From: Haliotis asinina
Taxonomy: Eukaryota; Mollusca; Gastropoda; Lepetellida; Haliotidae
Assembly: GCF_037392515.1 (NCBI RefSeq)
Contig: NC_090285.1
Location: 5,459,501-5,523,500, forward strand
Length of the DNA: 64,000 nucleotides
Reading direction: 5' to 3'
Shown: positions 9,724 to 63,046 of the stretch, piece after piece
Position numbering within the stretch: position 1 is the first letter of the stretch
Layout of the letters: each line of letters starts with the position of its first letter
Notes under the pieces: model-generated
Told to the model about the DNA's origin: nothing
The model's input: only the letters and a program-made list of their open reading frames with translations
The model's database searches: none
Position numbers and translations under genes: made by a program

Positions 9724-12700
9724 ATGAAGTTTGACGATGTTTTTGAGTATCTGGGGGCTTTTGGAACATACCAGAAAAGGATGTACTTTCTGCTTTGCTG
9801 CCCTGGAGTCTTCACTGCAATGCAAATGCTGGTCGCTGTATTCACCCTCAACATTCCAAATCACAGGTATTGTTACAAACTCGAATTTGAAACATACGTA
9901 TGCGCTCATTTGCTTTGTGCGTATAATGGCCAGCGTGAGTGATTTTGTAAATGGTTTTACCTGTAGCATCATTTTGAATTGCAATTCTGGTTGTAATATC
10001 TGACAGTTCGCTTTTCAACAACAACCTAAATGTCATAATATTTATATCACAAGCTTAACGACCGTACAATTTATTTCGGTGGTTTGGTTATAAAATGTAG
10101 AAGCATTGTAGAAGGTCATTTGGCAAGCGTATACCTCTGCTGTAAGAACAAGACGGAATATTCTCCAAGTACATAGCAATGTCGCCGGCCTTAAACGTCC
10201 CCGTTATTTCGCTACATGTGTATTGCCGGCGGGTATACAGTGTTCTCCTTTGTCAAGTGGTGTTTTGACGAGTATGACATGAACATGACAGTGAGATAAG
10301 TAACACAAGTCACTTTCAAGCAATTTCATTTCCACGTATTGCCTTATGCGCTTTTAATTCTTAATGGTATTGTGAAACTACCAATGGTGTAGGAGTAGTG
10401 TTAAGACTTACTGCAAAGGGGGCCTTAGAATGTTACATTAATGTGTGCATGTTAAGGCTTATGGACCTGTCAGGGACGTACGTATATGCATGAAGTGGTA
10501 GACCTAGTTCATATCGTAAAGTACACAGCTTGATGCAAATAAAAAAATAAACCAGGGGAAAAAGTATATGCAAACACCTCCAAGATGAGCTTCAGACCTT
10601 CAGTGCTTACTATTTGTGCATTCACAATTGTATTCAGTCACCACCTATTAAGTGGCGTTTGCAGGTTTAAACAGTGATGTAACTAAGGTTTCGTTACGCC
10701 TGTAATTTGATCATCTCAGTGAACAAAAGCTTGGACACAAAGAACATTGTGTGCAGCCACACATTGGTTACTTGAAAGTGTTGGGGTAGGTTTTGTACCA
10801 GTACGAGCAGAAGTGAAATTATGAATATGTAGTCCAAATCTTTTGTGCGTGAAATTTTCATCGCAATCCTGAATCATTTCACAATTTATTGTTTTTATAT
10901 GTCTTTGTACTTCTTAAAATTCAGTAGAACAAAATCTATGCGTGAAAACACACATGTGAAACATTGTTTGCGTGTTTTTTTGCGTGAAAAACCACAAGTT
11001 TCTACGTTAAAGCGAATGCTTGACCTAAAAAAATTTCTTTTGATGGTACAATTTCTGTATTCACGATGTCGCTCAGTGTACGGCATTCAGCTAACTTCCC
11101 AGGCCCCGATTTCTCGAAACAAACTTAAGTTTTACTCAAATCTCAAACCGCGTTTCACAATTTGAAACAGCTGAATTTTTAACTCAGTTGCATTTTTGAC
11201 ATATAAAACCCAAACAAATGATGTAATCTATTCACGAAACTCAAATTGTTTCCTATAGTTCCTATAGTTCTGTGCCGATTTCAGTTCATTCTGAGAAATG
11301 CGTTTTCTCAAATTTGATTAAAATCTCAGACTTAAGTCAAATCTCAGGTTTAAGTTTGTTTCGAGAAATCGGGGCCTGGGCACCATGCGTATCCAGATGA
11401 CGAGAATGTCATCATCGTTATTGCATGGCGTTCTGCTCATGATACCATATACTTGTTTGCCTGGTCTAGTTGTGGTGAGAATTGGTTTTAAATGGATTTT
11501 TCTTGACTTCGATGTTTAAGATTGTTGTCTTAACCTATATTACAAGGCATTTAATGTCAGCGTGTCTTGTGGTTGTAACAGCAATGAAAGAGTCTGCGCA
11601 CAAAGCTGACTCATAGGTTTTTCACCCGGTCACAAGTGACCTCGATCCCGGCACCTTAAGCTCGCTAGATTACTAGCCTAGCTGCCTTTTCACAGCCTGC
11701 CCAACGCGAAATATTATGAATAATAATACGCGAATGCAAAGAGACTGTGTTGAGGTTACTCACTCAATATTGTTCCAGTTAGGGGTGGTGGGATAGCCCA
11801 GTGGGCAAAACGTAGATCGAAGACAAGGTTTCGATTTCCCACATAGGTACAATGTGTGAAGCTCGTTTGTGGTGTCCCCCGCCGTGATATTCTGGAATAT
11901 TGCTAAGAGCGGCTTAAAACTAAACTCACTCACTGGTCCAGTTACATCACCGCGTGTAAGGAGTCAAACCCCCATGTGATGACAGTTTCAGACATTTACA
12001 CTTTGGTGCAATCTGGGGTGAATTGAGATTCGAACACACAATCATGGGTTCCTGTTGTGTCCAAGGGACGCAACACTGCATGGTTTTGCGACATTTTGAT
12101 TGGTTATATGGTTGTTTAAGGCTGCACTCAGCAATTTTCCAGCTGTGTGACGGTTGTCTCTAAATAACCGAGTCTGGAACAGACAATCCAGTGACCAACA
12201 GCCAGTGTATGAAATTACGTCTGCCCAGCGGCCCGCTGCTTGCTGGTTACATGTATATGTACTAGGTGTTGACCTTTCCACACCCGGTATAATCCAGAGA
12301 CAGGTAAATTTAGTTGTTATAGGCTGTAGTATAAGTAGACACCCGGCTAATCACACATTGCATGAAGGGTAAGTCCTCTTTATCATTGTACGAGCGAACT
12401 CGGCTCATGTAGCTCGTTGACCTATCCCGGTCCCATTACATGTATCAGCATCCCTTAACCCAGGCAACGTTCGAAATAATCGCCGGCCCGGAGGCCCGGC
12501 ACAGATTGTTAATTATCGGGCCGGCAGTTTCAAATAAACTGTGCGGCAAAAGAAAGTATAGGTCGGAAAAAGTCAATTTACTGTGAAAGTGTGGATAGCT
12601 GGTTGAAAGTATGCATTCAGACAGTTGTCCCCAAGCACAAGGATGCAAAATCGCATCTCCCAAACACATCATGACTGGTGGTGCCACGCTGCACCAGAAA

Positions 12701-15700
12701 ATGGTAAAACACGTGCAAAGGCTGCAGAGGGAGATCCACGTGCCGAATTGGCATACAAATAAGGTGAAACCATGGGTTGACAACACAGCTGACAAAACCA
12801 CACAATCGATGTGCCTAGACTGACAAGAGAGGAGGGAGAGAGGGTGATTGCACCAGATGGAAGCAGCACACCTTGCACGAAGGTACGGGTGCATGCCTTT
12901 AACGGTATCCAGGCTGCTGCAACGTTACCGACAGACAGGAAGGACTGCAGACAGATCCAGAACGGGAAGACCACGTGTCACAACACCCCAGGAAGATCGC
13001 CGAATTCGAACAATTCACTTACGCAACAGGTTCGTCACGGCGACGGCGACGGCGACGGCGAAGGCTGCAACAGCGCTGGGACATCGCATCAGCCAACGCA
13101 CAGTACTCCGACGAAACAGAGCCTACCGCCCCTCCAGAGAAATGTTCCTGACAGTACAACATCGACACCGAAGGTTACAATGGGCGAGACAGGTTCGAAT
13201 CTAGCAAGTGCGAGAATGGCGCCGAGTACAGTTGTTTCCAGTTGTTCCAGAACGACGGCGGACAACGAGGTTGTCGCCGAAGAGGTGAACGTTTAGCACC
13301 ACCATGCATGGGAGAGGTCGATCAGTTCGGAGAGGGAGGTGTTATGGTCTGTGGAGGGATCTGTGGGGAAGAGAACACTGACCTGGTCATTGTGCAAGGG
13401 AACCTGAATGCTGTTCAGTACAGAGAGCAAGGTCTGAGCCCAGCTGTGCTTCCATTCCTGTGGAACCAGCCACAGGGAATAGTGTTCCCACACAGCAAGA
13501 TTGACACAGGACTTCCTCAACCGCCACCAGATGCGATGTAATGTGTACTGAGAGAAGAGTAGCAGAGAATCCCTACACACGTCATCAGACGCCTGACGTC
13601 ATCAATGAGATGACGCGTCACGGCATGTATTGATGCACGTGGGAGTCATATACGATACTGAGACTTATTCTGTTTGTTGTGTAAACTTGGACAATGATTG
13701 TCTCTTAAGACAATGCTGAAAAATGAGTTGTTGGACCCCACCATTGCTCAACTAACGCCCACATGTTATGTGTTGCCAGTATTCCAATCATTTTGTGGCT
13801 TAATACTGATCATTGACCCATCTTTCACGATATACACACGCTTGGCCAATTTGATTTGTTGTGTCTTGTTTACCACTCATGAAACTCCACCTATTCTTTC
13901 TTTTGCCGTTTAGTTTTATGTGCAGACCCTAGTGTCCTTCATTATATTATCTTTTTTCACAACTGGAATCTTTCCCTTATACTTTTCCCTTTTCAAGTCT
14001 GGGAATCATACATGATCCATCATGTGACGATAGTATAGTTCATGATAATTCAGCGCTGTGCGCATAGGAATGTCAGCACCAGTCTTTACAATAAATAAGT
14101 CTCTCAGCGCTAATTGATTTTGTATCACCAGTGTGAAACTGTACACAGTGTGGTCTATTTTGTTTTTATTGGTTTGACTTTAACAAAATGGGCCTGCAGA
14201 TTTCTTTCTGGGCCTGTAGATTTTAATGCCTATAAGCGGCAGCAGGCCCTGGGGGTCAGCTGGCAAATTAAAGTATTGCAAACACAGAACCCGGGTCCAA
14301 CAAGAGCCTCTTTGAAAATATCCGGGATGTTCACGGGACTCAAATTCTATTTGCAAACAGGAAAGTCTATAGATTGTAACTATAAACCTTCTATATGTAT
14401 ATATGGGTGGATGTATGTGTGTGTTTATGTGTGTTATATTGTCATGTGGTTTAATACAGCGGAGACAAGTGATATACTGACCCGCATTTAATCATGTTTG
14501 TAGAACCAGTCAATGATATGTGTTCAGCATGGGTTGTACGTGACTGTGCATATATCTTGGTTGCACTGAAGGTCAAGAATGACATTATTCCTTTGTGAAG
14601 AGTTCATTATCTTTACTTAATGGTGACCCTCCCGACATTGTTTGCATAATCAAAAGCTATACTACATGTTTCATGTATCTATTTCAAATTTCCTTTCTAA
14701 ACAAACTCAAAATTAATTTTAAGTTCTGTATCAAGTCCTTATTTTGACCCTATTTTACTGTTCTGCGTTTCGTTTTTTTGTGAATAATTGACTTGTATTT
14801 GCATGTGTTTGTAACAGGTTGTCACAGGTGGGGCAGTTTGATACTAAGAGTGAGTCGATGAAGTGGCCCTTGAATTTGTTATGGTTATAGAAATGTTTCT
14901 TGTCGCCTTGATATAATTAATTTGAATTACTTGGTGAGTACGCACAATTGTATGAAGGATTCTGGAAACAAATATCAGTAGTGTCGAATTCATGTTTAAT
15001 GAAGCTGTCGTGATATACCTGGAAACAAATGAGTCTTTGTATACATACAGATGTTAAAATGAGGAGCTGGGGCGGGGGTTGGAGTTGGGATTGGGGGGAG
15101 GGGTGGGTGGGTAGGGCTTTCGTAGGGGTGACAGTCGAATGTAATATCATTGTCAATAGGATTGATAGGATATTGATATGCGCACACATCCAAGCAACTA
15201 GTTCATGCTCACGGCGCCTATAGCCTATTTTCAATACATTATATTCCAGAGTAGAGGTCTACCCTTTGTGTATTGTACGTAACAGGCATAGCTACAGATA
15301 GTGCGACTCAAATCCTTCTCTAACATGCGGTGGAAAGGTTCTCTCACTGCCACCTTACAACCTTATTGCGTGTCACTACAATGTTAAGCAGAACCCAAAC
15401 CTCGTTATGGATAGTACAGGCGCATACTGGATGGCCCTCGTGTAGATCTGACGTTCGTTTCTCTGTGGTCACTTGTTTATGCAACAACTGTGCGCTTACC
15501 AGGATAGTACTGCTATGGGATAGTCCTTAACAGGCTTACTGGCCTTTTTCCCAGTCAGAGCTCACGTTTGCCTCGCTTTCACTAACATGCACAGAGCTGC
15601 ACTCATTGTTAGCGTTCTGCACCCGCAAACCCGTTTGGAATTGCAATTTTAAAAACACCCAAGCTGAAAATTGAATAATATTGTTGCCGTTGATTTTAAG

Positions 15701-21700: not shown

Positions 21701-24700
21701 ACCAACACTGATGGCATCAGTCCTCCTACACATCGGCACAGGAGTTGGAACAGCGTTTGCTCCGAACTATGTGGCTTTTGTCATTCTCAGATTTCTTAAC
21801 GGTGCTTCTAATATCGGTCTCTTCGTATCATCCTTTGTCATCGGTAAGTAAACTTAGTAAGTCAGATTGTTATTTGGGTTTTATTCAATAATATTAATTT
21901 TCATCATCGCTGTAGGTTTATCTGGTATATCTCTCTGTAAAATCCATCGACCTAATTTTCAGTCATGGAACTCGTTGGTCCCTCCAAACGAACCTTAGCT
22001 GGCATGGTCATCGAGTTGTTTTGGTGCATAGGACTCTTCCTTGTGGGAGGTCTGGCGTACTTCATCCGTGACTGGCATCATCTCCAACTCGCCATCTCCG
22101 TCCCAGCCGTGTTACTGCTCGGCTTGTACTGGTGGGTGCACCTTCTTTATTGCTCAACACCTCAATAAGTCTATGCTGGTGCAAGCACTAGCATTTTCTA
22201 AACAATGTTCTGTTTATGAGCGAACATCGAGTTCTCTTTACGGAAAGACTAAAATAGATTGTGTCATAATTTTGCATTTTAAATGATTTTAATCTTTGTC
22301 CTCGTCACCTCGCCACTGTGGGTAAATGGTCAGTGGCGAGAACAGATTAAAGATGCTAATCATGCAGCAAGTACCATTGTTAGAATGCAATATCAAATGT
22401 ATGCTCGTAGGTTAGTCCCTGAGTCGCCAAGATGGCTGCTGTCACGTGGTCGTGAGCAGGAAGCAGAAGCAATCCTCAGGAAGGCGGCAGACGTGAACGG
22501 CGTGACTCTTCCACAGAAGCTGTTTGACAAGGACACTCTGGATGACGGTCCCAAGGCCAAGGTCACAGAGATGTTCACCTCCCCAGTGCTCCTCGTCAGG
22601 ACGCTCATCATCTTCTTCAATTGGTCAGTAGAAGTGCCATACCCATGAAGACCCAGCTTAGATATTCAGTAATGCATGATTTACTAATCATGTCATTATA
22701 ATGTAACGATGGATAAATGTCCTGGGGAAGAATAGTTTTACGCCGCACTCAGCAATATTCCAGCTATGTGGCAGCAGTCTGTAAATAATCGAGTCTGGAC
22801 CAGACAATCCCATAATCAACAACATAATCATCGATCTGCGCAATTAGGAACCGATGACATTTGTCAACCAAGTCAGCGAGCCTGACCACCCGATCCCGTT
22901 TGTAGCCTGTTACGACAATCATGGTCGCCTTTTATGGCAAGCATGGGTTGCTGAAGGTCTGTTCTACCTCGGGACCTCCACGGGTCACTGGCATCTGTGC
23001 TTTAGTCAGCAGAGTCAGACAGTTCCCATTGTTAGTTATTAGTTTGTCATCTAATTAGCTAGTTGTTGAGTTTTTCATGTTGAACTTCCTACTTTTAAAC
23101 CAGGCTTGTTGTCAGTATGGTTTTCTACGGTCTTGGGCTGAATGTCGGAAACCTCGGCGGTGACATCTACCTGAACTTCACCATCGCCAACATCGTGGAG
23201 ACAGTATCTTACTTCATGTGTCTGTATCTGTTGGACCGACTGGGCCGGAAGTTCCTACACTGTGGCAGTATGTTGGTGGGAGGGATTGCGTGTATTGCGA
23301 CCATTTTCCCAGTTTTGTATGGAGGTCAAGGTGAGGTCAAGAAAATCTTCGCATCTGAAACAGGTAGCCGGCCCTAAGCCACAGCAGTTCGCTTTGCAGG
23401 CTATCGTTGTTTGGGTATATTAGAAGCCTGTGAAGCCGATAGCGCATGATATTTTTAGTTAAGTGAACACGCGCTCTAATCAAGCTGGAGTAATGCTTAG
23501 TAATGCTTAGCACGTTGAACCCAACTCACCAACTGATTACAGACATATTTATTAATAAATATAACAAAGCGGGGTACATCATGTATATTGTTTACAGAGC
23601 TGGAATGGGTGACAATTACTCTGTCGATGATTGGCAAGTTTGGAGCATCAGCTGCTTTCGCCATTATTTACATATTTGCTGCGGAACTGTTCCCTACTGT
23701 TGTGAGGAACTCGGGCATGGGCGGCAGCTCCTTCTCGGCCCGTATTGGAGGAATCCTGTCCCCGTACATTGCTGATCTGGTGAGTCTGGGAGTAAGATGG
23801 GAATATAGTAGCAGTCAGGCCTATTGTGTCGAAAGAGAAAGTTACGGGTCATCGGTGGTCAGAAAATGTTCTGCTTTGAAAAATGATTGCCAGAGAGAAC
23901 GATTACTGACCCAAAGACGCTGAAGCAAATGAAATGTTATTTGAACATGCAATATTTCTATAGACGAGAGTAGATGGTCATTCTTGTGTTGGCTTCATGC
24001 AGCAGTGGCTCCTAACCAAATGTATTGCTGAACTTTTCTGTCAACAGTGTGTTGAGAGCTCTCTTTTCCGTGATCTACAATCTTGGATCAGACATCACAA
24101 CGTGATGAATATCACACGGAACATTGACTGAACTTGGCTGGGTGCTGCAAGAGGATGCAGCTCGGAATATTGCTCGCTCAGAATATCATTTGCGGGTGTA
24201 TGTGGACTAGACCTCGCCGTAGAACGAATATTTGTCCTGTTATTGGGAAGAACCCATTACTGATCAAGTCTTGATCAGACTCCACCAACATTTTCATTGG
24301 CATGTTACATCCACAATTCTCTCAATTCTCTCTTCTTGCACATTTATAACCGTCACTCATTGTACCTTTGTTATCATAAGTAAATTCTCCACTTTTACTC
24401 GTGGTGTCGGACTGAGCTGAATATACACTCTGTCTGTAAAGGTCCTCCATCTTTGTGTGTTGTAGGGCACAATAGTTGGTGGTGACTTCGGTAACGCGCT
24501 ACCGCTTCTGGTATTTGGTGCTGTGACAGTGGCGGCGGGGATACTCGCACTGTGGCTGCCCGAAACACTGAATCGAAAATTGCCGGAAACTATCGAAGAC
24601 GCCAAAGTTTTCGGAAAGTAAGTTGTGATGCCTATCAGATATTAAATAATGATTAGGATTTAGGAGTTATGCTGGTTCATTTGTTCTGCAATAGAATGGT

Positions 24701-25408: not shown

Positions 25409-25627
25409 AGAGAAAAGACTACAACAAGACGACGTATTGCTTGTTTTGTGTTACCTGTCATATTATCATTGATTCGTATGCAAAAACTAATTCCATTTAC
25501 ATATTTATCCATATTTACAGCAGGACAAGCCAGATTTATGGATGTCAACTTCGTTATTTGTGTATAACACGACGTTTTGGAGAGTGTGCTTGCCTATCAT
25601 CGTATTCTTTACCCCATCGTTACGTAC

Positions 25628-25780
25628 CATGTTGTTTTAGTGCATCACAGGCCTCCTCATGTTGTTTTGGTGCATCACTGGCCTCCACATGTTGTTTAGT
25701 GTATCACTGGCCTCTTCATATTTGTGTTGTATTCCATCAAGTCGATTACCATGTTGTTTTAGTACATTACTGGTCTCATT
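25628..25780. repeat. 30-bp tandem repeat in the 3' flank of gene A
   Basis: Three adjacent units of 'catgttgttttagtgcatca' plus 'caggcctcct' start at 25628, 25658 and 25688, and a fourth diverged unit starts near 25750. They begin 220 bases after the stop codon and so probably lie in the 3'UTR. Confidence 0.85.
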
Positions 25781-25834
25781 TTTTGTATAATATTTTCAGT
25801 CTTCAACGTTGTTAAACATGTCTTCTTTGTAGCG

Positions 25835-25930
25835 CCTGTGTATACACCTCTATTCACCTGATGAAGGAGCAAGCATACACTCCGAACCGTCGTTTTATCC
25901 ACAATAAAGAAGTTGATGTCCATAAATCGG
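25835..25930 (+). mobile_element. Penelope-type tail fragment
   Basis: 'cacctgatgaaggagcaagc' followed by 'actccgaacc' and 'caataaagaagttgatgtcc' matches the end of the element at 39292-40670. Only the tail is present. Its AATAAA may be mistaken for the poly(A) signal of gene A. Confidence 0.8.
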
Positions 25931-26892
25931 GCATTTCTTATGCTTTCCACTCCTAAATGTCCTTCCTACAATTTATATTTACAGTAATTGTATAAATCCA
26001 CATGCATACAGTTCTTATGGGAAGCCGACAAATGACGGCTATCTATGTTCTCATACTTATCTGGCTTTGTAGAACAAGACAGTGTAACTATTTCACTAGT
26101 ATGGACTGGTCTGATTTTACTGTTGGTGTGTTTGTTTACAAACAAACAACGTCTCATTGAAATCCATGACGTTAAGTTAGGCAATATACATAAGCTTTAT
26201 AGTTTAAAAATACAACATCATACATACTAACTAGAAAACTAAATTAACTGGCATGTGCTTTTATAACAGATGTTGTATTTGGGATGGCAGCTTGTACAAC
26301 TTGTATGGCACTGTGTATTCAAAGCGTGTACTTTGCCTGCATTGTCGGCCAAATACCCATATTGCGCCCATTGTCAAACCAAACATACAGAGAAATAATG
26401 TATTTATATAGCCGTGCACAACTAAAGCATGAATTATGTTATAACAGGTTTATTCGCCAGTGCTACTACATATGGGGCACTTGTACATGTTGATGGTTGG
26501 AAGGTGAACATACACTGCACTTTGAACGACATTACTTGTTGAGATCCATACAGAAGGGCGAGTACTACGTAAGGAAAGGATATGCGGATAGTAAACAACC
26601 AAGTAAAGAAGTTGTATCCTATATATGTTATCCTTAATGGGTCGGAAGAAATGGATGATTGGCACTGAACTGTGGCAGACATTTACTAACACTTCATACT
26701 TTGTTTCGCATGAATAGATATTTAGATAGCGTCACTAGGACCTTTGAAACACTGACACAGGTAAATAAAATGTTTCTTATTTTGAGTTAATAGATTCAAA
26801 GGTGATAAATAGTATTGATAGTTTGTAGAATTAGATACAACCTTTATTTAAATGTAATACATACATTCAGTAAGCCAGCGTGTCACGTCTTA

Positions 26893-36300: not shown

Positions 36301-39300
36301 GCCACGAAGAGATACATGGGTACACATAAGGTTTGTACCATACACGAGGCATAGAGAAAAATGTTCATACAAATACGAGGCGTACAGAAATAATTTGCCT
36401 GCACATATTACCTTGACAACAATTTTAAGTCAGTTTAGTTTTCAAAACGCATAAGGTCGATATCGTTGCATAAAGTAAACGCTATTTAAGGTCAGAATTG
36501 TAAAGGTCACATGCAACGTAAAACACGATACCTTTCGGTATGCAAATACCGAAACAAATCATCAAAAATGTCAATTCAACCTATAAAGTTGAAAAAAAGC
36601 GATGAAAAAAAAGCCCGCGAAATCTGAGTTCAAACGATAAATGAGATATTGTTGGCATGACACGGGTTTCATCATTTAGCTGATGTGAACATTTTTATCA
36701 GGCCATAATCTTGCTAGATTTAAACGTGTATTGTAACTTAAAAAGTCGGAGAGAGTGACATAGTTACAAAATGACGTGAAAACTCACCAGCAAAACGGGC
36801 CACTGACTGTTGAGATTTACTGGTCCGACTGGATTTTTATCAGCCAAGGGCTAGCTGGCCCGTAGCTATTTCGCACGATGGTTTCCAATCGCTCAAGCTC
36901 TGGGACACCTCACATAAACAGAATGCATGGCCACACGCTGCTGCTAGACATGCAAAAGGCAAAAGTCAGTCGTTACACGGGATATGTCGCCATTCGTCTT
37001 GGAGAGCCTGGACCCCTTCCAGCCTAGTTCCCACTAACGCGTCAGCGCAGCAGACCCCAGGAACTAGTTCCCAAAGATGTTCTCGCTGTCGACCACGACG
37101 ATTCACGACATCCCTACGGTGTTCTTTTGGAACCTTTTCCGAAAGCGTGGAGGCCATGGCATCACGGAGGTGTCCTTTTGGAGCCTTTTGGGTAGCGCGG
37201 AGGCCATGAAATCACAGAGATGTTTTATCGGAACCTTTTGGGTAGCAAAATTGATTCATGTTGGGTGTTTCTGCTTAAACAATGTATGATTTACAATTTG
37301 CGACTTGTAAACACATGGTGAGGGCACAAAACAGACATATATTTGTAAAGTGTAGCGAATGATGCAATACTGAAATGTCTCTGTGTGGCCACGCCTCATA
37401 TCCAATAGAACACCCTTCTGTTCAGCAATAAGTCACACTATTATCTATTCTGTACCTAATAGTGCGTTTGTGCTACCAGTGTGTTTATAACTTCAGCATT
37501 CGTATGTGTACATGGACTGATGCACCGAAATGCACCAAAATTCAGTCATAAAAAATCATTCATCAAATTCAGTCATCGTAAAACCAGAGTTTGGGGAACT
37601 GTTGAAAAAAGTTGACGACTCCAGACGGATGGTATCAGAACTCATCGCCTCATATGTGGAAAGGTCTTGACACCTACACAGTCTACCTAGATAACAAAAG
37701 GCAAGAACTGTACATAGTTGCAGGGTGCTATAGTTCTCAGATGAAAGTCACTTCAACTTGTTCCGAAATGATGGCCTGTTCCGTTTTTTATTTGGGGAGA
37801 GTGAATGCACTTTACTGCATCTACGATGAGCGGAATGTCTGGTCAACGGAGGAAGGGGTCTTTATTCAAAGATATAGGGATGAAGTCTTGTGGTGCCCTT
37901 CTTTCGTCAACAACTTCTGCAACAGGACAATGTGCGATTCCATTCATCTGACGTTTTGGGGATTATCGTAACAGGTCAGCACGTCAACATGCACAAACAT
38001 CTCTAATAATCTTACACAACGTGTATCTCACCCATCAAAGATTTTGGGGTGGGCAGGAGGGCAGGGGTTGCAACACACGCTCCTACAGACCTGTTTGGTT
38101 ACATGAAGGTAAATGAGCCATCAGAAACAACGTTAGTCATATTGTAAACAGTCAATCTATCTATGTATCTATCTATGTATCCATCCATCCATCCATCCAT
38201 TCATTCATTCATTCATTCATTCATTCATTCATTCATTCATTCATTCATTCATTCATTCATTCATTTATTTATTTATTTATTTGGGGAGGCACGCCCAAAC
38301 TATGTGAATCCCATTTCTGGTGTCCCCCGCTGTGATATTGCTGGAAAAGTTCGGCGTCAATCCACACTCACGAAGTCCCTTTGTAGTATTCATTGACGGT
38401 AGTTAAAACGACTACGTTATTGCATAAGTGCTGAACCGAGAATCAGTTAATATGCACATGTACTGAAGATGTACCACCGGTTGGAGCAGTTTTATCAGGT
38501 ATATCGCAATATGTCAACTTAGTGTCAGTGGAAAGCCATTTTCCCGCACATCTCACCACTCACACGGGCACAAATATACATACTCTCTTGGGATATGATT
38601 CATGAGATGTTTTTGCTTGTTGCTGTTAACATATAATGAAGATGCATCGCATCGGTTGGCTGTCGCTAGGTCATTATGTACATGTTATTCAGCTCGATGA
38701 AACGACCTGCTGTGATGTTTGAATACACCGATACATATGCACCGTAAAATTACCGAGAGAACACACAATATATGCACGTTCTTTCCAAAATCCTTTCTTG
38801 CGTTTTGGTCGTTTTGTGTGGCGCTCTATATTCAGGCCCTGTCCATGATAGAGAATGTATAAAGTGTTTGTACCGAGGATAAATGTCGCTCTCCTGAGAA
38901 TGCATGATAACTGCCTGATTTACCAGACATGTCATAATCATGCTAATTTAACAATGCCATATCCGAAGCCGCGTGTTCCTTTCACACAGGTCTGTGGTGA
39001 TTATGTCTTCCCCTAGTGAGTGAGCATACGGATGGCTTTATAGGGCATGTCAGCCTGGCTGAGGAGAACTGGCAGCCATTCAGAAACAAATGGTCATATA
39101 TAGTCATATATAATCTGGTAGAGGTTCCGTATTCAACGAGATACCTTTTCTCAAAAGTGTAACTTAAGTTGCAGGTACATCGATGACCTAATAGATCGTT
39201 CAGTTACCACGAAACAGCCCATTGTGAGCATCCCCGTCCAGAGACTTAGCCACCACAACTTTAAATATATATAGCAAGCAAGTTAGTCTGGTCTTTGAAT

Positions 39301-42300
39301 GTCATTTAGAAGTGAAAATACATAAGAATGAAGATTTTTATGGATATCAACTTCTTTATGAGAGAACACAACGTTTCGGAGTTAATGCTTACTCCTTCAT
39401 CAGGTGATTGAGAAAGGGATACAGAGGTGTATTTATATGTACAGGTAAAACAATAACAAAGTAACAAGTGGAATGAGTTAACGAAAGCTAGTATAAACAA
39501 GCACTGATAGGAAGCCGATAGTTAAGATAACAATGATGGAAGCCAATGGTAATGCATTACAGTTGATTGGATATGTTTACATAACATGATTGGGGATAAG
39601 GGTGGAAGCCAATGGTGATACATTACGCATGATAGGATGATGTACATAACACACGATAGGGGGTGAGCATGTTTACATGAGGATTGGTGATGTACAAACA
39701 CAAGACCCTTAAGGACCGAGAACCCCGCCCCAAACCTTCTCCATCACCCATCAGAGTAACCATACCCTACCTTGGCCCCATCAGTCATCAAATATCACGC
39801 CTCATCAAGACCAAAGCCAGCATCGATGTCACCTTCTCCAGTGGCAAGACCATCAAGACCTACCTAAAAGCCAACGGTAAAGGACCCAGCGGTGAACACC
39901 CTAACCCGAGAGGATGCATCTACCAGATCCCTTGCAACTGTGGCGACCTATACATTGGAGAAACGCTGAGACCAATCAACACCAGAATGAAGGAACATCA
40001 GACCTCAGTCAGGAAACTCGACCAGAAATCGGCCATCTCTGAACACATACTCAAGAACCCTGAACACTCAATTCGATGGGAGGACACTAGGATACTATCT
40101 ACCAACAACAACAACTGGCGCCAAAGGAAACTGCAAGAGGCCATCGAGATCCGGAGACAGAAACCAGCCATCAACCGCGACCAAGGAGTGTACCTACCAA
40201 GTGCCTGGGACTTATTGATAAATTAATCTCATCTACCTGTGTACATTCTATCTATGTAATTCATGTATAGCCTATCTACCCGAGTACATACTTGTGTTTG
40301 TACATCACCAATCCTCATGTAAACATGCTCACCCCCTATCGTGTGTTATGTACATCATCCTATCATGCGTAATGTATCACCATTGGCTTCCACCCTTATC
40401 CCCAATCATGTTATGTAAACATATCCAATCAACTGTAATGCATTACCATTGGCTTCCATCATTGTTATCTTAACTATCGGCTTCCTATCAGTGCTTGTTT
40501 ATACTAGCTTTCGTTAACTCATTCCACTTGTTACTTTGTTATTGTTTTACCTGTACATATAAATACACCTCTGTATCCCTTTCTCAATCACCTGATGAAG
40601 GAGTAAGCATTAACTCCGAAACGTTGTGTTCTCTCATAAAGAAGTTGATATCCATAAAAATCTTCATTCTCAAGTTAGTCTGCCTCGAATGTATTATTTT
40701 TAGATCTATGTCTGTATGACAAAAGAAATGATGTCAGCTTTCCAGTACCGAGTCAACTTTCATTCGTGTCTAGCATCATTCAAACAGCCTCAGTATGTGG
40801 TGTTTACCTTGCACGACTTTGACGTACTATACATACAGTGATCATGCTCGGTGTATTATGATTACTAGGAAGTCACACGACTCTTGCTCAGCGGATGCTC
40901 GATGATAGTTACTACATCCATGGGACTCGTGCAGGTCCGGGTACAAGAGGCCTTCAGCAACCCATGCTTATCATGAAAGGCGACTGCTTATCGTTAGAGG
41001 CGATTAACGGGATCGGGTGGTCAGGCTCGCTGACTTGGTTGATACATGTCATCGGTTCCTAACTGCGCTGATCGATGCTCATGTTGTTGGTCACTGGATT
41101 GCCTGGTCCAGACTCGATTATTTACAGACCGCCGCCATATAGCTGGAGTATTGCTAAGTGCAGCGTAAAACAAATCTATCTCACTCACTCACTCACTCAC
41201 TCACTCACTCACTCACTCACTCACTCACTCACAACGTCCAAGGCCTCAGTAAATGTTCAAAATGTGTTATAGGGAGGTGACACCGGGACAAAAATATGTC
41301 CTATACAATTCCGGATTTAAGCTTGAAACCGTTGCCGAAACAAATAGCTATAGCCTTAGTCTATAATGGATACGACCAGTGGAGCAGGACTAGTATCATC
41401 ACTGTTTTCATTGCTTTTCAGAAACACAAGCTCATGACACAATCAGTGTTGTGCAGACAGTATGGACATGATGTCCTTGCTCGAATATGAAGTACATGTT
41501 TTGTTTTAGATTCACCACCTCAAAATATATTATGTGGAATCGTGTGATAAATGTTTCGTCGGACTGTTGTGTGAATATTGTTTGTGAATCTGCAGATGCA
41601 ATAAATGTATTGTTCAGTAACAAAATGTTATTTCAAGGTGTGCAGTCCCTGGTCTAGCCAATGATACCTACAAGAGTCAGGGTAGCGCTCACGACATCAT
41701 CGTCAACAGAACCATTCCCTGGGAACGTAATGACGACGGTGTATCCAAGCTGTCAGAGTGCAACGTGTACACTAACTTCACAGCGGGCAACGAGACACAA
41801 GAATGTACATCCTGGGTGTATGACAAAACCACATTCACCTCCACAGCTCTTGCGCAGGTGAGTGTACATATCGTCTCATGGTTAATTTGCAATTATAGTT
41901 TGACAGTCGAAAAGCCACATAATCATTCCCCTGTTCGACCAAGATGACGGGCTGCCAAGTCATGACAGGAGTATTGTAGTGGTTGTCGGGCTACCAATAA
42001 TATGTATGTCAATTGTGGGAATGGCGTGCTTATGTCTTTGTTGGGTACAGTGTGTTTGTGTCTGGTACCACCCCCCCCACCCCCCATCCCCACCCTGTCT
42101 CGTTGCTGGAATATTGCCGAAGAGGCGTAAAACTATATTCACTCACCTACGTCGTTTCGAACACCTCGCATCATCTTTTACTTTCAGTACACTAAACTTT
42201 CATGTTTATCTAGTTCAACATCGTGTGTGGGAACAAAGGATGGAGAGCGACCTCTAACTCCATCACCTTTGCGGGCAGCCTGGTTGGTGCAATCTTCCTG

Positions 42301-48700: not shown

Positions 48701-51513
48701 TCCGAAGTGTTTATTTTGGGATGAAGTGTTCATCTGCATACAGTTGATTTGCACTCTGGCAAATATCTCGATGTTTCGATTCAAGCTATGCAAATTTCCT
48801 TTTTCCTAGATCATGGTTAGATTTGTGATCAAACGTCTTTCCACAATTGTGTGAAGTGACTGACAGCGTAAAATCTTCGTCAGTTTTATCTACATGTCCA
48901 GCACAACTCCTGAAGCTGCAGTCTTAAATTTACATTTCACAAGAAAAAAATCTGACATGATCTCGCTACCAACGAGTTTAGAGACACTCATACGATATTT
49001 CGTCTGAAGAAGTTGTCTTAAGACCGCTGTAAAGTTTTGCAACAATTACAAACATGTGACAAGATGAATAAACATTCCAGGCGTGGCCTGAATTGCGTGA
49101 CTTTGTAATTAATGCACATAACCTGCCACGCCCATACAGTTGGCAGCCAATCAGCATTGAGATATGCCAAAGACGGTCCTGTCGATCAAGAAGAATTGTG
49201 ATTACTTTACGTATCCGTAACAAGTAACAGGGAGAACGCACCTGTTTCAAATGACATGGCAGGTAATCTCCTCATTCAATCCTTAGAACTCGGAAAATGA
49301 AGCATATCAACGAAATCTGAAATTGTGACTGAAGCTGTGCGTTGAGGGACTTAGAAGTCTGTTGTATCGGAGCGTTGTGGTTGTGCTTGGTACCTGAAAA
49401 CTGGACTAAAATGTTGACCTGAAAACTTATAAATAATGATAGAAGAAAGGGAACTGCCGCGACTCCGCTGAGTATTCCCTGGGGTACATGGTACACCGCT
49501 CCCTTCAACTTGGCTTCTTTTCATAACATAAGTCGGCAAATGAATGGAGCAAACGTGTCCAATTCAGCCGCAATGCAGAATGCTTGAATGACAATGAACA
49601 CACGACAATTTCAGTGTCACGACTGGGCACCCCAGACAAAGACTCAGAGTAGTGAATCCGAGCGGGGACTCGAACATGAGCCAACGGCGTGACTACCCCA
49701 ATACCCTGGTACCAAGGATAACGTTGGAAATAGACTCACTACACACACGCAATGCATCTCGTTTCTAGACGTACAATGATGCTAAAACCGATCATAAAGC
49801 ATATAAAACATAGTATTTCCTTGATCCATGTCTTCACAAGATTCATTCATGTAATTCTCACTGAATTTGCTATAAATGGAATATTACTGTCAACCCTGGT
49901 TGGTAAATCTTAGTCGTTGAAATATTACAAAATTAATTAAATAACATGCGCTGAGAAAACTGGTCTGAAATACCTTAATTCACACAGTACACCAACTTCA
50001 TAGTCGATTGTTATCCTCAATAACATGAGGGCACTGTCCTGAGTGTGCAGCACAGACGTAATCCGAGTGTTCTTGGTTTCTGTTGACCACATTTCAGAGT
50101 GAATTCACGCAGATGAATGTCACAAGACATGCATGACTCAATACAATGATATGCCTATATAGTAGACACGATGGGGGACCTGTGTAACAGAACGGCCAAA
50201 GACTAGTCAAAAATACTTGTAGACAATCTACACAAAAATAATGGATGCTGCTACCAATCACAAACTGTGACGAAATAAATACCAGAGTTCGGAGACGAAG
50301 TTCAGTGAAAATATATCACAAGGACCTAACAGACAAAGAATGAAGAGACTGGCGATATGCAGAAGGATCACACAAGTAGATAAAGTTCCAATAACGATTT
50401 TATTTAATGAGCACTAAACTGTAAATACACCGTCTCGAAACTGTCACCTGGAATGTCATCAGGACTGGACATCTTGCTTGTCAAACAGTGTCTTCGTGGT
50501 TGTAGAAGTCTTGCAGTGCTGTATGGCAGTCTTGATGGAGACTCCTGGCTGTTAAATGAATTGAACTGCACTATAAACTTTCAAACTGGCAAGTGTACGA
50601 ACTTGCAACAGCCGGAACTGGATCCAGATAATGTAAACAAAGTATTCCGGAAGCCACGTGATCCGGAATGAATGACAAGGATGCCACACCTCCGACAGCT
50701 GTCAAAAATGTGATACGAGTAAGGATATAGCTAAATCCCACTTATAACTTGCATTGAAAAACTCGACTGTTTCCAATCATACCGTGTGTGAGAACTCCTC
50801 AAGAGAGACTGTAACTTGATAAGGTAAACATAGCATTTCGGAATGACCTCGCGAAGACAATCAGCGACTGCCAAACATTAAATAAACTGTGAACTGTAAT
50901 ATTTCCTTCTGCCGATAAATCGTACTAGATTTGCGATTGACAGCTGTGACAGTGAGTGTATCTGTATCTGTAATCTGTACACTTGATTCCCATCAGCCAA
51001 GGATAATCCGTCGGAATGACCAAGTCCAAGTGTTAATAATATCCTTGATAATTAAAAGTCATACAATAAAAAATGTCCCACAATGCGAAAACGAGAATTA
51101 AGCTGTGACGTAGCGCTGGAACCCTACCTTGCTTGTGAAAGTCAAATTTGCCGTCCCGGCGCTAACCTTGACAGCTCTATTTAGTGGTGACCTAGGGTCG
51201 CATGATACACAAACGTGACACCAGAATATTGAAGATAGCGACTGACATGACTGACGTTACGTGCATTGGAAATTACTGTTATTATTGATACTGTACCTTG
51301 GAAACAGACTGCATAAAGGTATTTCACCTTAATTAAATGCAGCATAAGACTGGTATCTTGGCTGGAATCACTGTGATGGCTGAGAGCTTGATAATCTCTG
51401 TACTTGAAGCCAAGATCAGACTTGAATTTTTGTTACACCTGTATCAAATCTTGTACGTTTTTTATGCCGATACGGTTTCTCCAACATGAAAGAAAACCTA
51501 AGTTCTATGGATA

Positions 51514-51575
51514 GTGAACTTCTTTGTTGCAATTAATGCGACGTTTCGGTGTAGGTACAAATACCGTTGTCCTCC
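51514..51575 (-). mobile_element. Penelope-type tail fragment
   Basis: Read on the minus strand, 'ccgaaacgtcgcattaattg' followed by 'caacaaagaagttc' matches the end pattern of the other Penelope pieces. It abuts the 36-bp repeat. Confidence 0.65.
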
Positions 51576-51589
51576 GGTCAAAATATGTC

Positions 51590-51705
51590 AATAACATCAG
51601 TTGCACATACGGGAGAAGGTCTAATAATAACATCAGCTGCACATATGGGAGAAGGTCAAATAATAACATCTGTTGCACATACGGGAGGGGGTCAAATAAT
51701 AACAG
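51590..51705. repeat. 36-bp tandem repeat, about 3 units
   Basis: Three units of 'aataacatcagttgcacata' plus 'cgggagaaggtctaat' occur, followed by a partial fourth. Confidence 0.9.
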
Positions 51706-52717
51706 GAGGGTAAGACTGTAACGTGATCACGTTGAGAAAGCAAAACCTTTATGAAACCAAAAAAGCCGTTTTAGTATTCATTGTTGGGGTGACGGTACGT
51801 AATGAGTCTACGGTTATCCGATGGGATAAAATAGCCACGAACTCATCTGAATGTGGACGTGCATGTGTAGTGCTACTGGCATTTTCTTTTAGTGAACAAG
51901 TTACAAAAAACCTGTCCACATCCGTAAACAGCAAACGTGGCCTCGTACGACCTTATTCTATAAGTCCGTCAAATAGTGATGGCGAATAGTGATTCACCCA
52001 CCACTGACACAACGCTAGACAACTCCTGAAGAAGCATGGTATTATATTCCTTCACTATGTCGTCATGAGATGGGGGCCGCTGTTCCACTTATATCAGTAC
52101 AGGACTCATATATGGCTTCGGTTAATACTCCAGTTACATCAAATCCTGTTTAAATAAGAGTTACTCATAGGATCAAACAGTTTGTTCACACAAAGGTTAT
52201 GTTCATATTTGTTTCAGTAGAGACAGCTCGTCCACGGACAGAGATGGGTTCTTCTTTACAACCATGGCCACTGTTGGTTCGTGATTATAGTCAACAAAAC
52301 TCCATATGGTTAGCTTTATAGGGTTATTTTGAGAGGCACTGAGAAGTTGGTGTAGGAAGGAAGGATACCAACATATGGATAAACAACTGTGATACATAAG
52401 TAGTTCTTCGATATATTATTATTCCTATGTAACATACTTGTTTATAAACAAACCCATAAGTTCAACCAGAATATACAAGGTAATTCGAGTTCCTTTTGAC
52501 TGGCAAAACAGCTGAGCTTCAGTTTCTTGTTTCAGTTTGTTTGTTGTCGCGTATCACAGTTTCAGTGCTAATGTTCAACAACAAACACACCTTCCAGCGT
52601 GCCCCCGACCGTTGTGAGTGTACGATGAACTGCGTGTTTGAACTGTGAAACTGACACGGCCACTATCCACGCTCCCATCTATTGCTGACTGCACCACGAA
52701 GGTGTTCAGTACAAATG

Positions 52718-52811
52718 GGCACCTGTTCTGCGAGGGCGGCACATGCCAATTGTGATATGTCAATTCATCATTGTTTAAACTAAGTGTAAAGGTCTTCATT
52801 CAAGTTTCGAA
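52718..52811 (+). promoter_or_regulatory. Conserved 5' flank / likely 5'UTR of gene C
   Basis: 'gggcacctgttctg' at about 52727 and 'catcattgtttaaact' at about 52767 correspond to blocks at the same distance before the ATG of gene A. Conservation over both copies, while the surrounding DNA differs, suggests a retained promoter or leader. Confidence 0.5.
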
Positions 52812-55201
52812 ATGAAATTCGACGGTATTTTTGAGTATCTGGGGGATTTTGGAACTTACCAGAAGAGGATCTACTTTCTGCTTTGCATCCCTGCTGTCTT
52901 TACTGCATTGCAAATGATGGTCGCTGTCTTCACTCTCAACATTCCAAATCACAGGTATTTATTGAAGAGAGAGAGGTTAGAGAGACGTTCATTACCTCTC
53001 GTTGTATTTTTTCACAAAGGACATTTCGTAGGACTGTAAATATACTTGTATTGTGACTGTATGTTTCAACGTCATCAAGTGATCCTTATTCTGGAAAAGG
53101 TGCGCGTTCTCTCACATGGTATTTTAAAGATGATTATAGAGTGTGGTTTTTCGGAGATAACAATAATTTCAGGATGCACAGTGCTTTGTAAATATTCATA
53201 CAGACAGTATTATACAACAACAAAGCCCCACTCAAGAACCTTACTCTCCCATTCTGCCGCTAATCACTTTGTCTCAGTTATGAAGCCAATATTTTGTTAT
53301 AGACAACAACAATACAAAGTGAAAATTCAGTTTGATTTTGATTTTTTCAGTGACGACCTTTTTCTGTGCCTCAAGTTCAATTGTTTAACATGTCCTAAAA
53401 CATCAAGGGCGGTTGTGAGAATTTATATTCGTAAATCGAAATTACACAGTAGGGTTCAAAGTATATTAGTACGATTCAAGAAATTCTGCGAATTCAATAT
53501 TAATGCGTAAAATGAATACTGGTTTCGTGAAAACACCAACCGGTCGTGATCTCGCGGTTTCTCTATACAACGTGTTGATTGTATCTATACAACGTGTTGA
53601 TTGTATCTGTACCACGTGTTGATTGTATCTATACAACGTGTTGATTGTATCTGTACAACGTGTTGATTGTATCTATACCACGTGTTGATTGTATCTATAC
53701 CACGTGTTGATTGTATCTATACAACGTGTTGATTGTATCTGTACAACGTGTTGATTGTATCTGTACAACGTGTTGATTGTGCCGGAGCTGGATGCACATT
53801 CACATGAGTCTTGTTTAAAGACGATCCATGTCATTCGACATATTCACTCATATGTAACACGATATGGAAGGTAAAGGAAGATTATGTAGATGTGAGGGCC
53901 GGGTCCTGGGACAGCAAACATTAAGGACCATACAGCTTTTAATGTGCCCATGATAAACAGGGACATTTGAGACACGTCTGTGAGGTCAGTGATACCATGT
54001 GAACATGTGGCGTGAGTCTCAAAACGGATGTGAAAAATGTCTGAAACAGAGAGTGCATAAAGTAGTTGTGTTATGCATGTTGACACTGATGAACTCTACC
54101 TTTGCGTTAAAGTAAAAGGGACAATACAGAAATGCCTGCTCCACCATAAAGTGTGACTCCACCACGTATGATCAACTGAACACACGTTTAGAGCTTTGTC
54201 TATGGAAATATAACACACCTGCTTTATAAACTGTTTTATTACATAGCTTCCCTTGCAATGAGGTAGCGTAATGGTTAAATCTTCGCTCGTCACGCCGAAG
54301 ACTCAGGTTCTATTCCCAACGTTGGTACGATGTGTGAAGCCTATTTCTGGTATCCCCGTGTAGTTGGAACATTGCTAAAATATTCATTTGCACTAAACTA
54401 TAGTAACATCAGTCATTTTCAACTCAAGATTCATTAAAAACGTACAATTAGTGTTCTTGGCATTATCTTTGTCGTATTGCTGTTTTCAGTCTTTGCCCCC
54501 ACACATGGTGAACTTATTAGTCTGCTGATGTCCAGGAAATACAATCAACGCATTACCTAACAATTGTTGTAGATGCGCTCTCCCCGGTGTCAGCAACGAC
54601 ACATACGCTGTCCAAGGACCTGACCACGAGCTCCTCCTTAACGCCACCATACCCTGGAAGACGGAAAAAGGCGTCAGTGTCAGAGACTCCTGTCTCATCT
54701 ACAAGGACGATGCTTCAGGAGGTCAGAACAGAACGACCCAGGAATGCAGCGCCTGGGTTTACGACAACTCCGTCTTCAAGAACACCGTTATTACAGAGGT
54801 ACGTTAACCAAACAAGGAAATAATGTTAATTCGATTCCAACGATTCGCAACAAGCCGGTGAATCACTCTCAAGCAGTATTGAACCACGTTCCTGGTGGAG
54901 TTCTGGTAGCCCCCATTACAAACGCATGTAGAGGCAAAGGTATTTGTACACTTTGGTCATATATGTAAATGTCCCACATATGTCGGCAATAGAACACCTT
55001 GAACATTCACTGCGGTTTTGAACGTTGTAACATATTTTGAACCAGATTCCCACGGTGCTGTGAAATCTTTGAAGACAGAACATGGTCGACTGCACTTTAA
55101 GAGCTCTTACACGTGACAACAATGTTGTTGATGCTGGAATATTGCTTGAAACAAACGAAAGGTTGACTTCAGGAACGTTGACGCCATCATTCCTCTTACG
55201 G

Positions 55202-58200: not shown

Positions 58201-61200
58201 ACCTGCCAAACGAACTTTAGGCGGTATGGTCATCCAGACGTTTTGGGCCGTGGGACTCTTCATTGTTGGAGGTCTGGCGTACTTCATCCGTGACTGGCAT
58301 CATCTCCAACTCGCCATCTCCGTCCCAGCCGTGATACTGCTCGGCTTGTACTGGTGGGTGCAATCTTAACTGGATCTATGGATGTCTTTCTATTTCAGCA
58401 TCCTGTTAAACACTAGTATAAATCCGATCGAAAAAATTATCCAAGACAGCACTAGAAACTAACCAAACGTTTGTTAAACTGGTATGCTATCGTACCCCAG
58501 CCCCATTGTATTGTTTTCAGTCCCCTGTAAATATTTCTACTCACAGGTTAGTCCCCGAGTCGCCAAGATGGCTGCTGTCACGTGGTCGTGAGCAGGAAGC
58601 AGAAGCAATCCTCAGGAAGGCGGCAGATGTGAACGGCGTGACTCTTCCACAGAAGCTGTTTGACAAGGACACTTTGGATGACGGTCCCAAGGCCAAGATC
58701 ACAGAGATGTTCACCTCCCCAGTGCTCCTCGTCAGGACTCTCATCATCTTCTTCAACTGGTCAGTAGAACTGCCATAGTCATCAGCATACGTCACCATGT
58801 GTATTAAACAGGAAACGTGTTTACAAATGAACTCATAATGAACAGGGCGACCGAACAAGTGTTTGCAACTGCATATTTCTTTAGTTCATGCTTGATGCAA
58901 ATATTTTCTCTGAAGGGTTTAGCCAAAACTGTTTAGGAGTCTATATGATATAACAATATGACACAGTAAGTGCAGCAAACAATTCATTTCAGTTAAGAAA
59001 TCCAGAAAATTATCCTTCTACCTGCTTCTATTCCTATCTGTGAATAGCTGGTCGAGTATTATCCAATTATTATCATTTTAATAAGCCTTAGATGTTAACA
59101 ACTTTCCAACTTCAACACAGGTTTGTTGTCAGTATGGTTTTCTACGGTCTTGGGCTGAACGTTGGAAATCTCGGTGGTGACATCCACCTGAACTTCGCCA
59201 TCGCCAACATCGTGGAGGCAGCATCCTACGTTATGTGTCTGTTTCTGCTGGCCCGACTGGGCCGGAAGTTCCTACACTGTGGCAGTATGTTGGTGGGAGG
59301 GATTGCGTGTATTGCGACCATTTTCCCAGTTTTGTATGGAGGCCAAGGTGTGTTGCTAAGAGGCCAGGTTTGTTAAAAAATATTAGAACTTGGTGTAAAG
59401 AATTTTCACTGTCAATACTGATAAACTAATACGTGGAAAATATAATGGTTCAGTCTTCATTAGAGACTGCAGCACAGACAGTAGTATGGAGTTGCTTCCT
59501 CTTGGCACGACAGAAACCGTGATTGAACTAAAGTACTTCCTGTACATATACATGCGTTTCCTTTACAGAGCTGGAATGGGTGACAATTACTCTGTCGATG
59601 ATTGGCAAGTTTGGAGCATCAGCTGCTTTCGCCATTATTTACATATTTGCTGCGGAACTGTTCCCTACTGTTGTGAGGAACTCGGGCATGGGCGGCAGCT
59701 CCTTCTCGGCCCGTATTGGAGGAATCCTGTCCCCGTACATTGCTGATCTGGTGAGTCTGGGAGTAAGATGGTAAAATAGTAGTAGTCAGGCCTATTGTGT
59801 CGAAAGAGAAAGTTACGGGTCATAGGTGGTCAGAAAATGTTCTGCTTTGAAAAATGATTGCCAGAGATGAAATGGAGTGCCAACTGTTCAGGTGGAACGG
59901 TCGGGTCTGACACGGCTTTCTCTATGTTTATGGGAATGTCTTCCACACTGTGATGAACCTGGTCAAACCGGTGGAACACAGCACGAGGTAATCAGTATGT
60001 AAATGTCACTGGCAGACATTGGAATTTGCAAACCTGGGAACGACATCAACTTGCACCACATTTCAACACAATATCCTCATTTCCTAGCCAACCAGTAGTC
60101 GATGGCATTGTCGAGTGTAAATCGGCAACTGGCGATGTTTTTGACTGCTAGAAAGCCCCTGCATGTTGTCCAAGGAAGATTAGTAGTCCTAAAACATGCT
60201 GAAGTCCACCGCCTTTACGCTTTCCGGACCTTACGTAACTGACTGGCAGCAAAATACAACCAAAAAGCAATGACCAGCCATGGCGTGACCCTCCCTCTAT
60301 GGAAAATGTCAAATGCCATTCTCTAATTTAGCTGACCTGGGCCAGATTACTACAGGAGATGCGATCTATAGTCTCCTAAATTGTCACTGGGCGGATGATT
60401 CCGACAAGGCCATGACTATTTGACCAAACATGGGGAATATCAAGTTATTGATCTAGTCATCTAAAACCTCCATTTGTAGATCAGACACTCATATTGCATT
60501 TCATGGTTGTTTGTGCCTTCACAATATACAGCCAATAAATCCTGATGATTGACCTGTTACACCTAGTTTCATTTTACATCATGTACAATCATAACCCACA
60601 TGGCACTTTGGTTATCACCTGTATCTTTTGAAAATAGTTCATGGTATAGCTCAACGGAGTTGAATATACAGTTTTTCTGTGAAGGTTCTCCAAACAACAT
60701 CCTTTGTGATTTGTAGGGCACAATAGTTGGTGGTGACTTCGGTAACGCACTACCACTTCTGGTATTTGGTGCAGTGACAGTGGCGGCGGGGATACTCGCA
60801 CTGTGGCTGCCCGAAACACTGAATCGAAAACTGCCGGAAACTATCGAAGATGCAAAAGTTTTTGGAAAGTAAGTTTCATTGCCTCTTAAAGATTATATAA
60901 CGATACCGAAGATCAGAACATGCTTACACGGCACGGTGGTCCAGTTATGTTTAATTCAATATTATGTCTTTTAAGAAAGTAGAGACACTTTTCACCATTT
61001 TGCCTCGGACCAGCTATGACGGCGATCCAGTTGAACGCCGACAGAGAAATTAGCGATAACGGCGACGGAGAAATTGGCGATAACGGCGACAAATTTGGCT
61101 GTAAATGCGACGATAATTTTGGCTGTGACGGCGACACATATAGTTTGTTTGTTTTTGGGTTTTTTTAAATGTAAATGATAACTAAAATTTGTTTATGCAT

Positions 61201-62571: not shown

Positions 62572-63046
62572 TAACACACCGACATTCTCTTCCCACAGTG
62601 GTTACTTGTCATATCTTCCTACGTAACCTCTGTTCTAATACGACCCTTTCATGGTGCGAGTGTTCAAGACTCGTGATTGGAGGCAATCAGATTTAGTAGT
62701 GCAATCAGCGACCTTGTTTCAAAAGTGATCGTTCGCAAGATCTCGGTAATTTCCGGATGCATCGTGAAAAATACAACTTCTTCCCGAGCGCGATACTCAA
62801 AATGTTTCTTCTAGACAGTACTCAGTTATGTCATATTTGTTTCTCCACGTTGCTCCCATTTGTCAAGTTGAATCTAGGTCGATGTAACACGTGTTCTGAT
62901 TGGACAGATAAAAAAGGGCGATAAATCTACTGCCATTTTTTGCCGCTAGGGGATTTTATGAGAACCGCGAAATATCCCGTATTAGAACAGAGGTTCGTAG
63001 GAAGATATGACAAGTAGCCTCTGTGGGAAGAGAATGACACACCGAA
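62572..63046. mobile_element. Foldback MITE-like element, about 74-bp inverted arms
   Basis: The left arm (62572-62646, including 'cattctcttcccaca' and 'tcatatcttcctacg') is the near-exact complement of 62972-63046. The 325-base centre has no coding potential. It begins 190 bases after the stop codon of gene C, so it may lie in its 3'UTR or just beyond. Confidence 0.85.

Follow-up and report, generated by a model that had tools for sequence, protein, structure and literature searches.

A truncated Penelope-like insertion with inverted arms in the Haliotis asinina genome and its probable origin by paired target-primed reverse transcription

A 64,000-nucleotide stretch of the Haliotis asinina genome (contig NC_090285.1, C6:5459501-5523500 of the 1.14-Gb assembly; hereafter 'the window') carries at positions 39291-40670 a 1380-bp unit in which an endonuclease (EN) reading frame lies between inverted arms. 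We consider it probable, at roughly 75%, that this unit represents one insertion, truncated at its 5' end, of a young multicopy Penelope-like element (PLE), and that it was produced by target-primed reverse transcription paired on the two cut strands, with one start site used on each. The critical observation is that in all 27 two-armed insertions of this family in our sample the tail is present at one outer end and absent from the other. A tail present always exactly once, together with a control made up of single-armed copies, yields a sharp and testable model of paired priming on both strands from two fixed starts, and any genome rich in PLEs, as well as the in vitro system already available, offers a way to check it. 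The mode of PLE insertion, and the reason for the inverted 'long terminal repeats (LTRs)' and their optional tail, are left open in the accessible parts of PMC3846280 and PMC11167929.

The unit is bounded by an exact 12-bp direct repeat whose only exact matches in the window, on either strand, are the two flanking copies. Its parts are as follows, in window coordinates.

39279-39290, no strand: left copy of the target-site duplication, CAAGTTAGTCTG, 12 bp
39291-39324, minus strand: 34-bp tail at the outer end of the left arm, where the template extends beyond the end of the right arm and contains the ATG that opens the PLE frame (MTFKD...)
39325-39704, minus strand: inverted pseudo-long terminal repeat (pLTR), 5'-truncated, identical to 40291-40670
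39368-39406, minus strand: minimal hammerhead-like core within the inverted pLTR, starting at 39406 and reading leftwards
39700-39704, no strand: inner junction of the two copies, with the 5-bp microhomology ACAAG; a single genomic occurrence
39705-40226, plus strand: C-terminal part of the PLE polyprotein up to the stop codon, with motifs presumed to be of GIY-YIG type (no Pfam or NCBIfam GIY-YIG match); reverse transcriptase (RT) absent
40227-40290, plus strand: element stretch after the frame, missing from the inverted arm
40291-40670, plus strand: right pLTR, outer end untailed
40589-40627, plus strand: minimal hammerhead-like core, CACCTGATGA...CGAAACGTTGT
40671-40682, no strand: right copy of the target-site duplication, 12 bp

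An earlier sequence-only reading had recognised the two-armed layout, the nuclease frame and the 12-bp duplication, and all three are borne out. It had also described the arms as equal in length and apparently identical. They are indeed identical, matching as reverse complements at 380 of 380 positions, but they are not equal in full, given that the left arm has 34 further outer bases that the right arm lacks. The complete arms measure 414 and 971 bp, which is one draw from the family's range of lengths, and the tail sits here on the shorter (left) arm, its 34 bp falling in the 30-40 bp range of the optional PLE tail. Similarly, the nuclease frame taken to be intact is open on the plus strand from stop to stop over 181 codons (39681-40226), but its first eight codons (to 39704) are inverted-arm sequence. 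As had been noted, the unit has no RT, and its frame encodes the C-terminal end of a polyprotein that combines RT and EN. Mapping on longer copies places the beginning of the element body at 39700-39704, in the overlap common to both pieces, and the inner junction falls at 140/2558 on the coordinates of the copy at locus L019, which serves as the template reference throughout. The proposal of a recent insertion also holds, with 0 of 380 differences between the arms and with long body matches that, among those listed, are 98-100% identical apart from one at 96%. The unit is an ordinary truncated copy and belongs with the EN-containing PLEs.

Our genome search produced 1910 first-look candidates, and the best 40, those closest to the window unit, were scored (119 matches listed). 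The sample comprises the window unit plus 33 fetched loci, minus L013, giving 33 independent insertions of the young PLE family. L013 was dropped because it has the inner junction of L012 and its flanks in reverse complement, and the pair is thus regarded as a segmental duplication. Two further places, C6:8628678-8631114 and C2:10192838-10194456, are situated no more than 6 kb from L027 and L033, have the look of local duplicates and were left uncounted. Among the 33 insertions, 27 are two-armed, with the 3' portion of the element present twice in head-to-head orientation and truncated differently in the two copies, and arm lengths range from 97 bp to 3.5 kb (23 units; the longest, L019, includes a tandem). 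The remaining six show one arm, although a second arm shorter than about 18 nt would have escaped detection. The pLTRs occur in direct as well as inverted orientation, since L019 also carries a direct tandem. Within the frame of that tandem copy there is a 151-bp direct tandem duplication (L019:5743-6044), to which other mapped copies match one copy at a time. At three loci (L024, L026 and L029) the pLTR is about 13 bases longer, in one arm as in the other.

The sequence-only reading named a minimal non-autonomous mobile unit as one of two possibilities and proposed a genome search for copies with the same borders. None of the 33 other loci fetched (32 independent) bears this out: they share the EN region and the 3' end and have other borders. 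A 33-mer across the inner junction of the window unit, with up to three mismatches allowed, has one match in the 1.14-Gb genome, and the unit is therefore one event rather than a family. Its other proposal, in which an autonomous element lost its 5' part and was joined to an inverted end, was the right alternative.

The outer ends of the two-armed insertions were measured on the L019 reference, for 26 units together and for L040 separately. In the 26 units the long ends fall at 551-561 and the short ends at 518-524, with the ATG of the frame at 539, and the ends of L040 fall at 558 and 521. Relative to the ATG, the commonest start sites are about -18 and +17. The six single-armed insertions serve as a control: three have long, tailed ends (L036, L037 and L041) and three have short, untailed ends (L018, L020 and L034), and lone starts therefore use either site about equally. 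If each end were chosen independently with a probability of one half, the one-tail arrangement would arise in 26 of 26 units with P of about 1.5e-8. By search matches, both uncounted places also have one long and one short end.

The rule also fits two older units in the window.

25521-25974, no strand: older two-armed PLE insertion with a 10-bp repeat, ATATTTACAG, at 25511 and 25975; tail on the right arm
3196-3367, no strand: older two-armed PLE insertion of 172 bp with short head-to-head arms; tail on the left arm

The flanking repeat of the latter (3184-3379) has decayed to 10 of 12 positions, a match seen in 0.4% of random places. A 30-bp minisatellite occupies the centre of the former (25511-25984). 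Retrieval with this unit yielded 12 loci of an older family including the unit itself, and both arms are present in six of the 11 others inspected. Four of these can be scored (L045, L048, L051 and L053) and all are long/short, a weaker result based on where divergent alignments stop. L050 and L052 are too fragmentary to score, and the other five loci are one-armed.

Flanking repeats, inner joints and arm likeness were compared across the same insertions. An exact flanking repeat of 12-15 bp encloses all 27 two-armed insertions, being exactly 12 bp in 14 of 26 and 13 bp in L040; the longest exact repeat at L019 is 13 bp, or 18 bp if one mismatch is allowed. Microhomology at the inner joints is in excess. 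Across 23 units, 17 joints overlap by 0-5 nt with a mean of 2.24, compared with 0.60 at random, and none of 20,000 resamples was as high. With insert joints set to zero the mean overlap is 1.65 (26 units), the null comparison covering the 2.24 figure only. The joints added later have a 1-nt insert (L035) and overlaps of 1, 4 and 3 nt (L038, L039 and L040, respectively). Arms of the same unit also tend to be alike: among 26 units (without L040), the partner arm is closer than the median foreign arm in 23, tied in two and farther in one (L010), and nine of the 26 have identical arms, some over short overlaps only. The sequence-only reading had named an assembly inversion as a possible source of the arms. 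We judge this very unlikely because 26 other insertions elsewhere in the assembly are organised in the same way, all with different inner junctions and each flanked by an exact 12-15 bp repeat of its own.

The target sites hint at polarity. When the 14 sites with exactly 12 bp are oriented with the tail on the left, C precedes the duplication in 7 of 14 and G follows it in 8 of 14. An A-run appears on the left side only, at the cut that would prime the untailed arm, with A at 27 of 42 positions versus T at 12 of 42 mirrored positions (Fisher P 0.002, a post hoc comparison on 14 of 26 sites).

These observations can be accommodated by the following scheme. The RT-endonuclease of the element would cut both target strands 12 bp apart, leaving 3' overhangs, and from each 3' end reverse transcription would be primed at one of two fixed sites, which are separated by about 34 nt and located near the start of the open reading frame of the downstream unit in the element RNA. 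At the window unit, one strand would have gained a 414-nt copy (tail and pLTR) and the other a copy of 971 nt (pLTR and EN region). The two cDNAs would have ended early and been joined at the 5-nt microhomology, and fill-in of the overhangs would yield the 12-bp duplication. The 'inverted pLTR' would simply correspond to the shorter cDNA of the pair, and the EN frame left in the unit would be a by-product of insertion. Both cDNAs presumably derive from one RNA or one source locus. One-armed copies may have arisen when a single cDNA was synthesised and joined directly to the target, as is suggested by L018, whose 9-bp repeat overlaps the element; the flanking repeat of L036 is 12 bp. Folding of the unit's ends on themselves, as had been imagined, is not needed to account for the layout.

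A broader formulation is tempting, and we advance it tentatively, at somewhat less than even odds. Every two-armed insertion of the PLE family might consist of two coordinated target-primed reverse transcriptions, one per cut strand, obligatorily at different start sites and probably on one RNA. The cut with the AAAC/GTTT signature would prime the upstream (untailed) start and the opposite cut the tailed start. If so, the inverted pLTRs of Penelope elements generally would be the shorter of paired cDNAs, and the tail would be a record of which strand primed where.

Several points weigh against paired priming as we describe it. Our sampling was narrow, because only 40 of 1910 candidates were scored and these were the nearest to the window unit. 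Six of the 33 insertions are one-armed, and at four of these (L020, L034, L037 and L041) no direct repeat was detected, so pairing is not obligatory. Six of the 23 inner joints have inserts of 2-42 nt, which were excluded from the 2.24 mean, and the arms of L010 differ at 9 of 358 positions. The GIY-YIG domain has no Pfam, NCBIfam or Protein Data Bank (PDB) match. Finally, the start site did not differ between strands in the experiments reported in PMC11167929, and the accessible parts of that paper do not link the two starts to inverted pLTRs, the word 'inverted' occurring there once, of a blocked DNA end.

The best surviving alternative is a variant of our own reading, in which paired priming takes place on two RNAs held in a protein dimer instead of on one RNA. 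A protein dimer is predicted in PMC11167929, and near-identical arms would also be expected from two RNAs of one locus. We regard this variant as quite possible but do not favour it, since it leaves the always-different starts unexplained unless the halves of the complex are asymmetric.

Far less room is left for self-priming, in which a single cDNA snaps back on itself, on an antisense template, and generates head-to-head inverted repeats, and which we consider unlikely. It was proposed in PMC3846280 from palindromes at inverted junctions, it agrees with the head-to-head orientation, and inner ends do lie less than 50 bases apart in three of 23 units (L010 2380/2409, L028 2392/2438 and L031 2065/2055). 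However, self-priming predicts nearby inner ends, and these are about 190 bases or more apart in the other 20 (for example 3149/2558, 829/2057 and 990/2378). Moreover, the copied arm should share the outer end of the first, whereas one is always about 34 nt longer.

Two other explanations are very improbable. The EN unit and both its arms might be copied and inserted whole, in trans, as a minimal non-autonomous mobile family. The unit does look complete with its 12-bp duplication, and PLE ends are able to mobilise other sequence in trans (PMC3846280). However, the single genomic occurrence of its inner junction refutes this proposal unless the assembly has collapsed many copies; the nearest look-alike, L009, has its tail on the longer arm and a different junction (2481/230); and the sole pair sharing a junction, L012/L013, is a segmental duplication. 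Alternatively, the arms might stem from independent events, such as a solo inverted pLTR whose edge later received a second insertion, or recombination of adjacent copies, several PLE remnants being available within the window. Against this, in each of the 27 two-armed insertions both arms sit inside a single flanking repeat, partner arms usually resemble each other more closely than arms taken from different units, and repeated chance pairing would not yield one tail in 27 of 27. A DNA transposon or miniature inverted-repeat transposable element (MITE) was rejected on the grounds that arm lengths vary between copies and the outer ends differ.

The coding content of the family is consistent with its placement among the PLEs. 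The left copy of L040 contains an open 797-codon RT+EN frame, and autonomous-looking copies therefore exist. An RT domain, as expected of PLEs, whose RT is related to that of telomerase, is found in this frame (RVT_1, E 9.3e-8, above the cut-off); it matches telomerase RT structures weakly (E 0.015), and its best matches are to AbiK (E 0.0007). Motifs in the window frame (GCIYQIPC...LYIGE...TRMKEH...NRD) were read by eye, and we take them to represent a GIY-YIG-type endonuclease. The EN frame has one weak PHROG endonuclease match (E 0.16), and an AlphaFold model of EN made without an alignment is unusable, with a predicted local distance difference test (pLDDT) score of 36.6. Searches of genome_contigs, viral_contigs and phages yielded no relatives of EN. 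XhlA matches from Pfam fell below the curated cut-off and were taken as chance. The sequence PSCEHPNPRG is read in L011, L016, L025 and L040 at a place where the window copy reads otherwise.

Each arm of the window unit also contains a minimal hammerhead-like core with CTGANGA and GAAA-type boxes, the copy at 25 kb reading GAAC. Stem II is changed on both sides in four of five pairs (only three window copies were compared), and shuffles scored as high in 18 of 500 cases on four measures and in 336 of 500 on a fifth. No hammerhead match was found in Rfam. A minimal type I hammerhead lacking helix III has been reported for PLEs (PMC7761336). Elsewhere in the genome, C11:38090394-38091229 is a tandem array, with a period of about 56 bp, of the stretch that follows the hammerhead region (query 340-392 of the 25-kb unit), and represents a satellite derived from a PLE pLTR.

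Other elements are evident in the window. At 6188-6583, an untailed inverted pLTR is joined to a fragment containing ADKGKATVIM, which we take to be the N-terminal RT region of a PLE, followed by a hairpin (AAAGCACTCACTATTTGTC.../...GACAAATAGTGAGTGCTTT). A solo minus-strand PLE 3' end lies at 51480-51560 (CGAAACGTCG...CAAAGAAGTTC), and no clear partner arm for it was found within 49000-54000. Short MITE-like units occur at 11098-11380 and 62583-63036, with terminal inverted repeats of 31 bp (100%) and 41 bp (95%). Near-identical coding stretches at 22283-22648 and 58422-58778 appear to be a duplicated transporter gene, presumably organic-cation-transporter-like, and overlapping open frames at 12445-13541 resemble a decayed Tc1/mariner-type transposase.

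Comparisons with known systems help to define what is distinctive here. LINE-1 twin priming involves two priming events, one per target strand, whose products are joined to give an inversion. In that process, the second primer enters inside the RNA and the pieces do not overlap, whereas in the present family both start in the same 3' region, so that the sequence of one arm recurs in the other. DNA transposons with terminal inverted repeats, and MITEs, likewise have inverted arms and a target-site duplication, but the arm lengths of the PLE vary between copies, the tail is on one end and the body belongs to an RT-EN frame.

Truncated copies with inverted pLTRs, and with a tail on one side, have been published before. 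PLE copies, including 5'-truncated ones, are described in PMC3846280 as flanked by inverted pLTRs with an optional tail on one of them. Nothing on inverted arms was found in the accessible parts of PMC12910113 and PMC6431247. The strict rule of one tailed and one untailed end, with its single-arm control, was not found stated in the literature searched, whose coverage was incomplete, and may already be known. The closest genomic parallel in these sources is Pen2_Av of Adineta vaga, a Penelope/Poseidon-type EN-containing PLE (PMC3846280), which also has truncated members with inverted pLTRs, microhomology at a 5' junction and partial tandems. Its tail is an optional 31 bp on one inverted pLTR and its duplications are 8-10 bp. 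In H. asinina, by contrast, the arms can be of any length and on both sides often extend as far as EN and RT, the duplication measures 12 bp, and exactly one tail is present in all 27 two-armed copies.

The biochemical parallel is PAc, the Poseidon element of Anolis carolinensis. The study of PAc (PMC11167929) was carried out in vitro, and a description of the paired-arm structure of single insertions was not found in its accessible parts. The purified Anolis protein cuts and extends both target strands, reverse transcription begins at two adjacent internal sites with the interval between them defining the tail, and the pLTR has a hammerhead motif, all of which resemble features observed or proposed here. 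The two elements differ in the position of these sites, given that the PAc starts lie 111-118 nt into the frame whereas those of the H. asinina family lie near the ATG.

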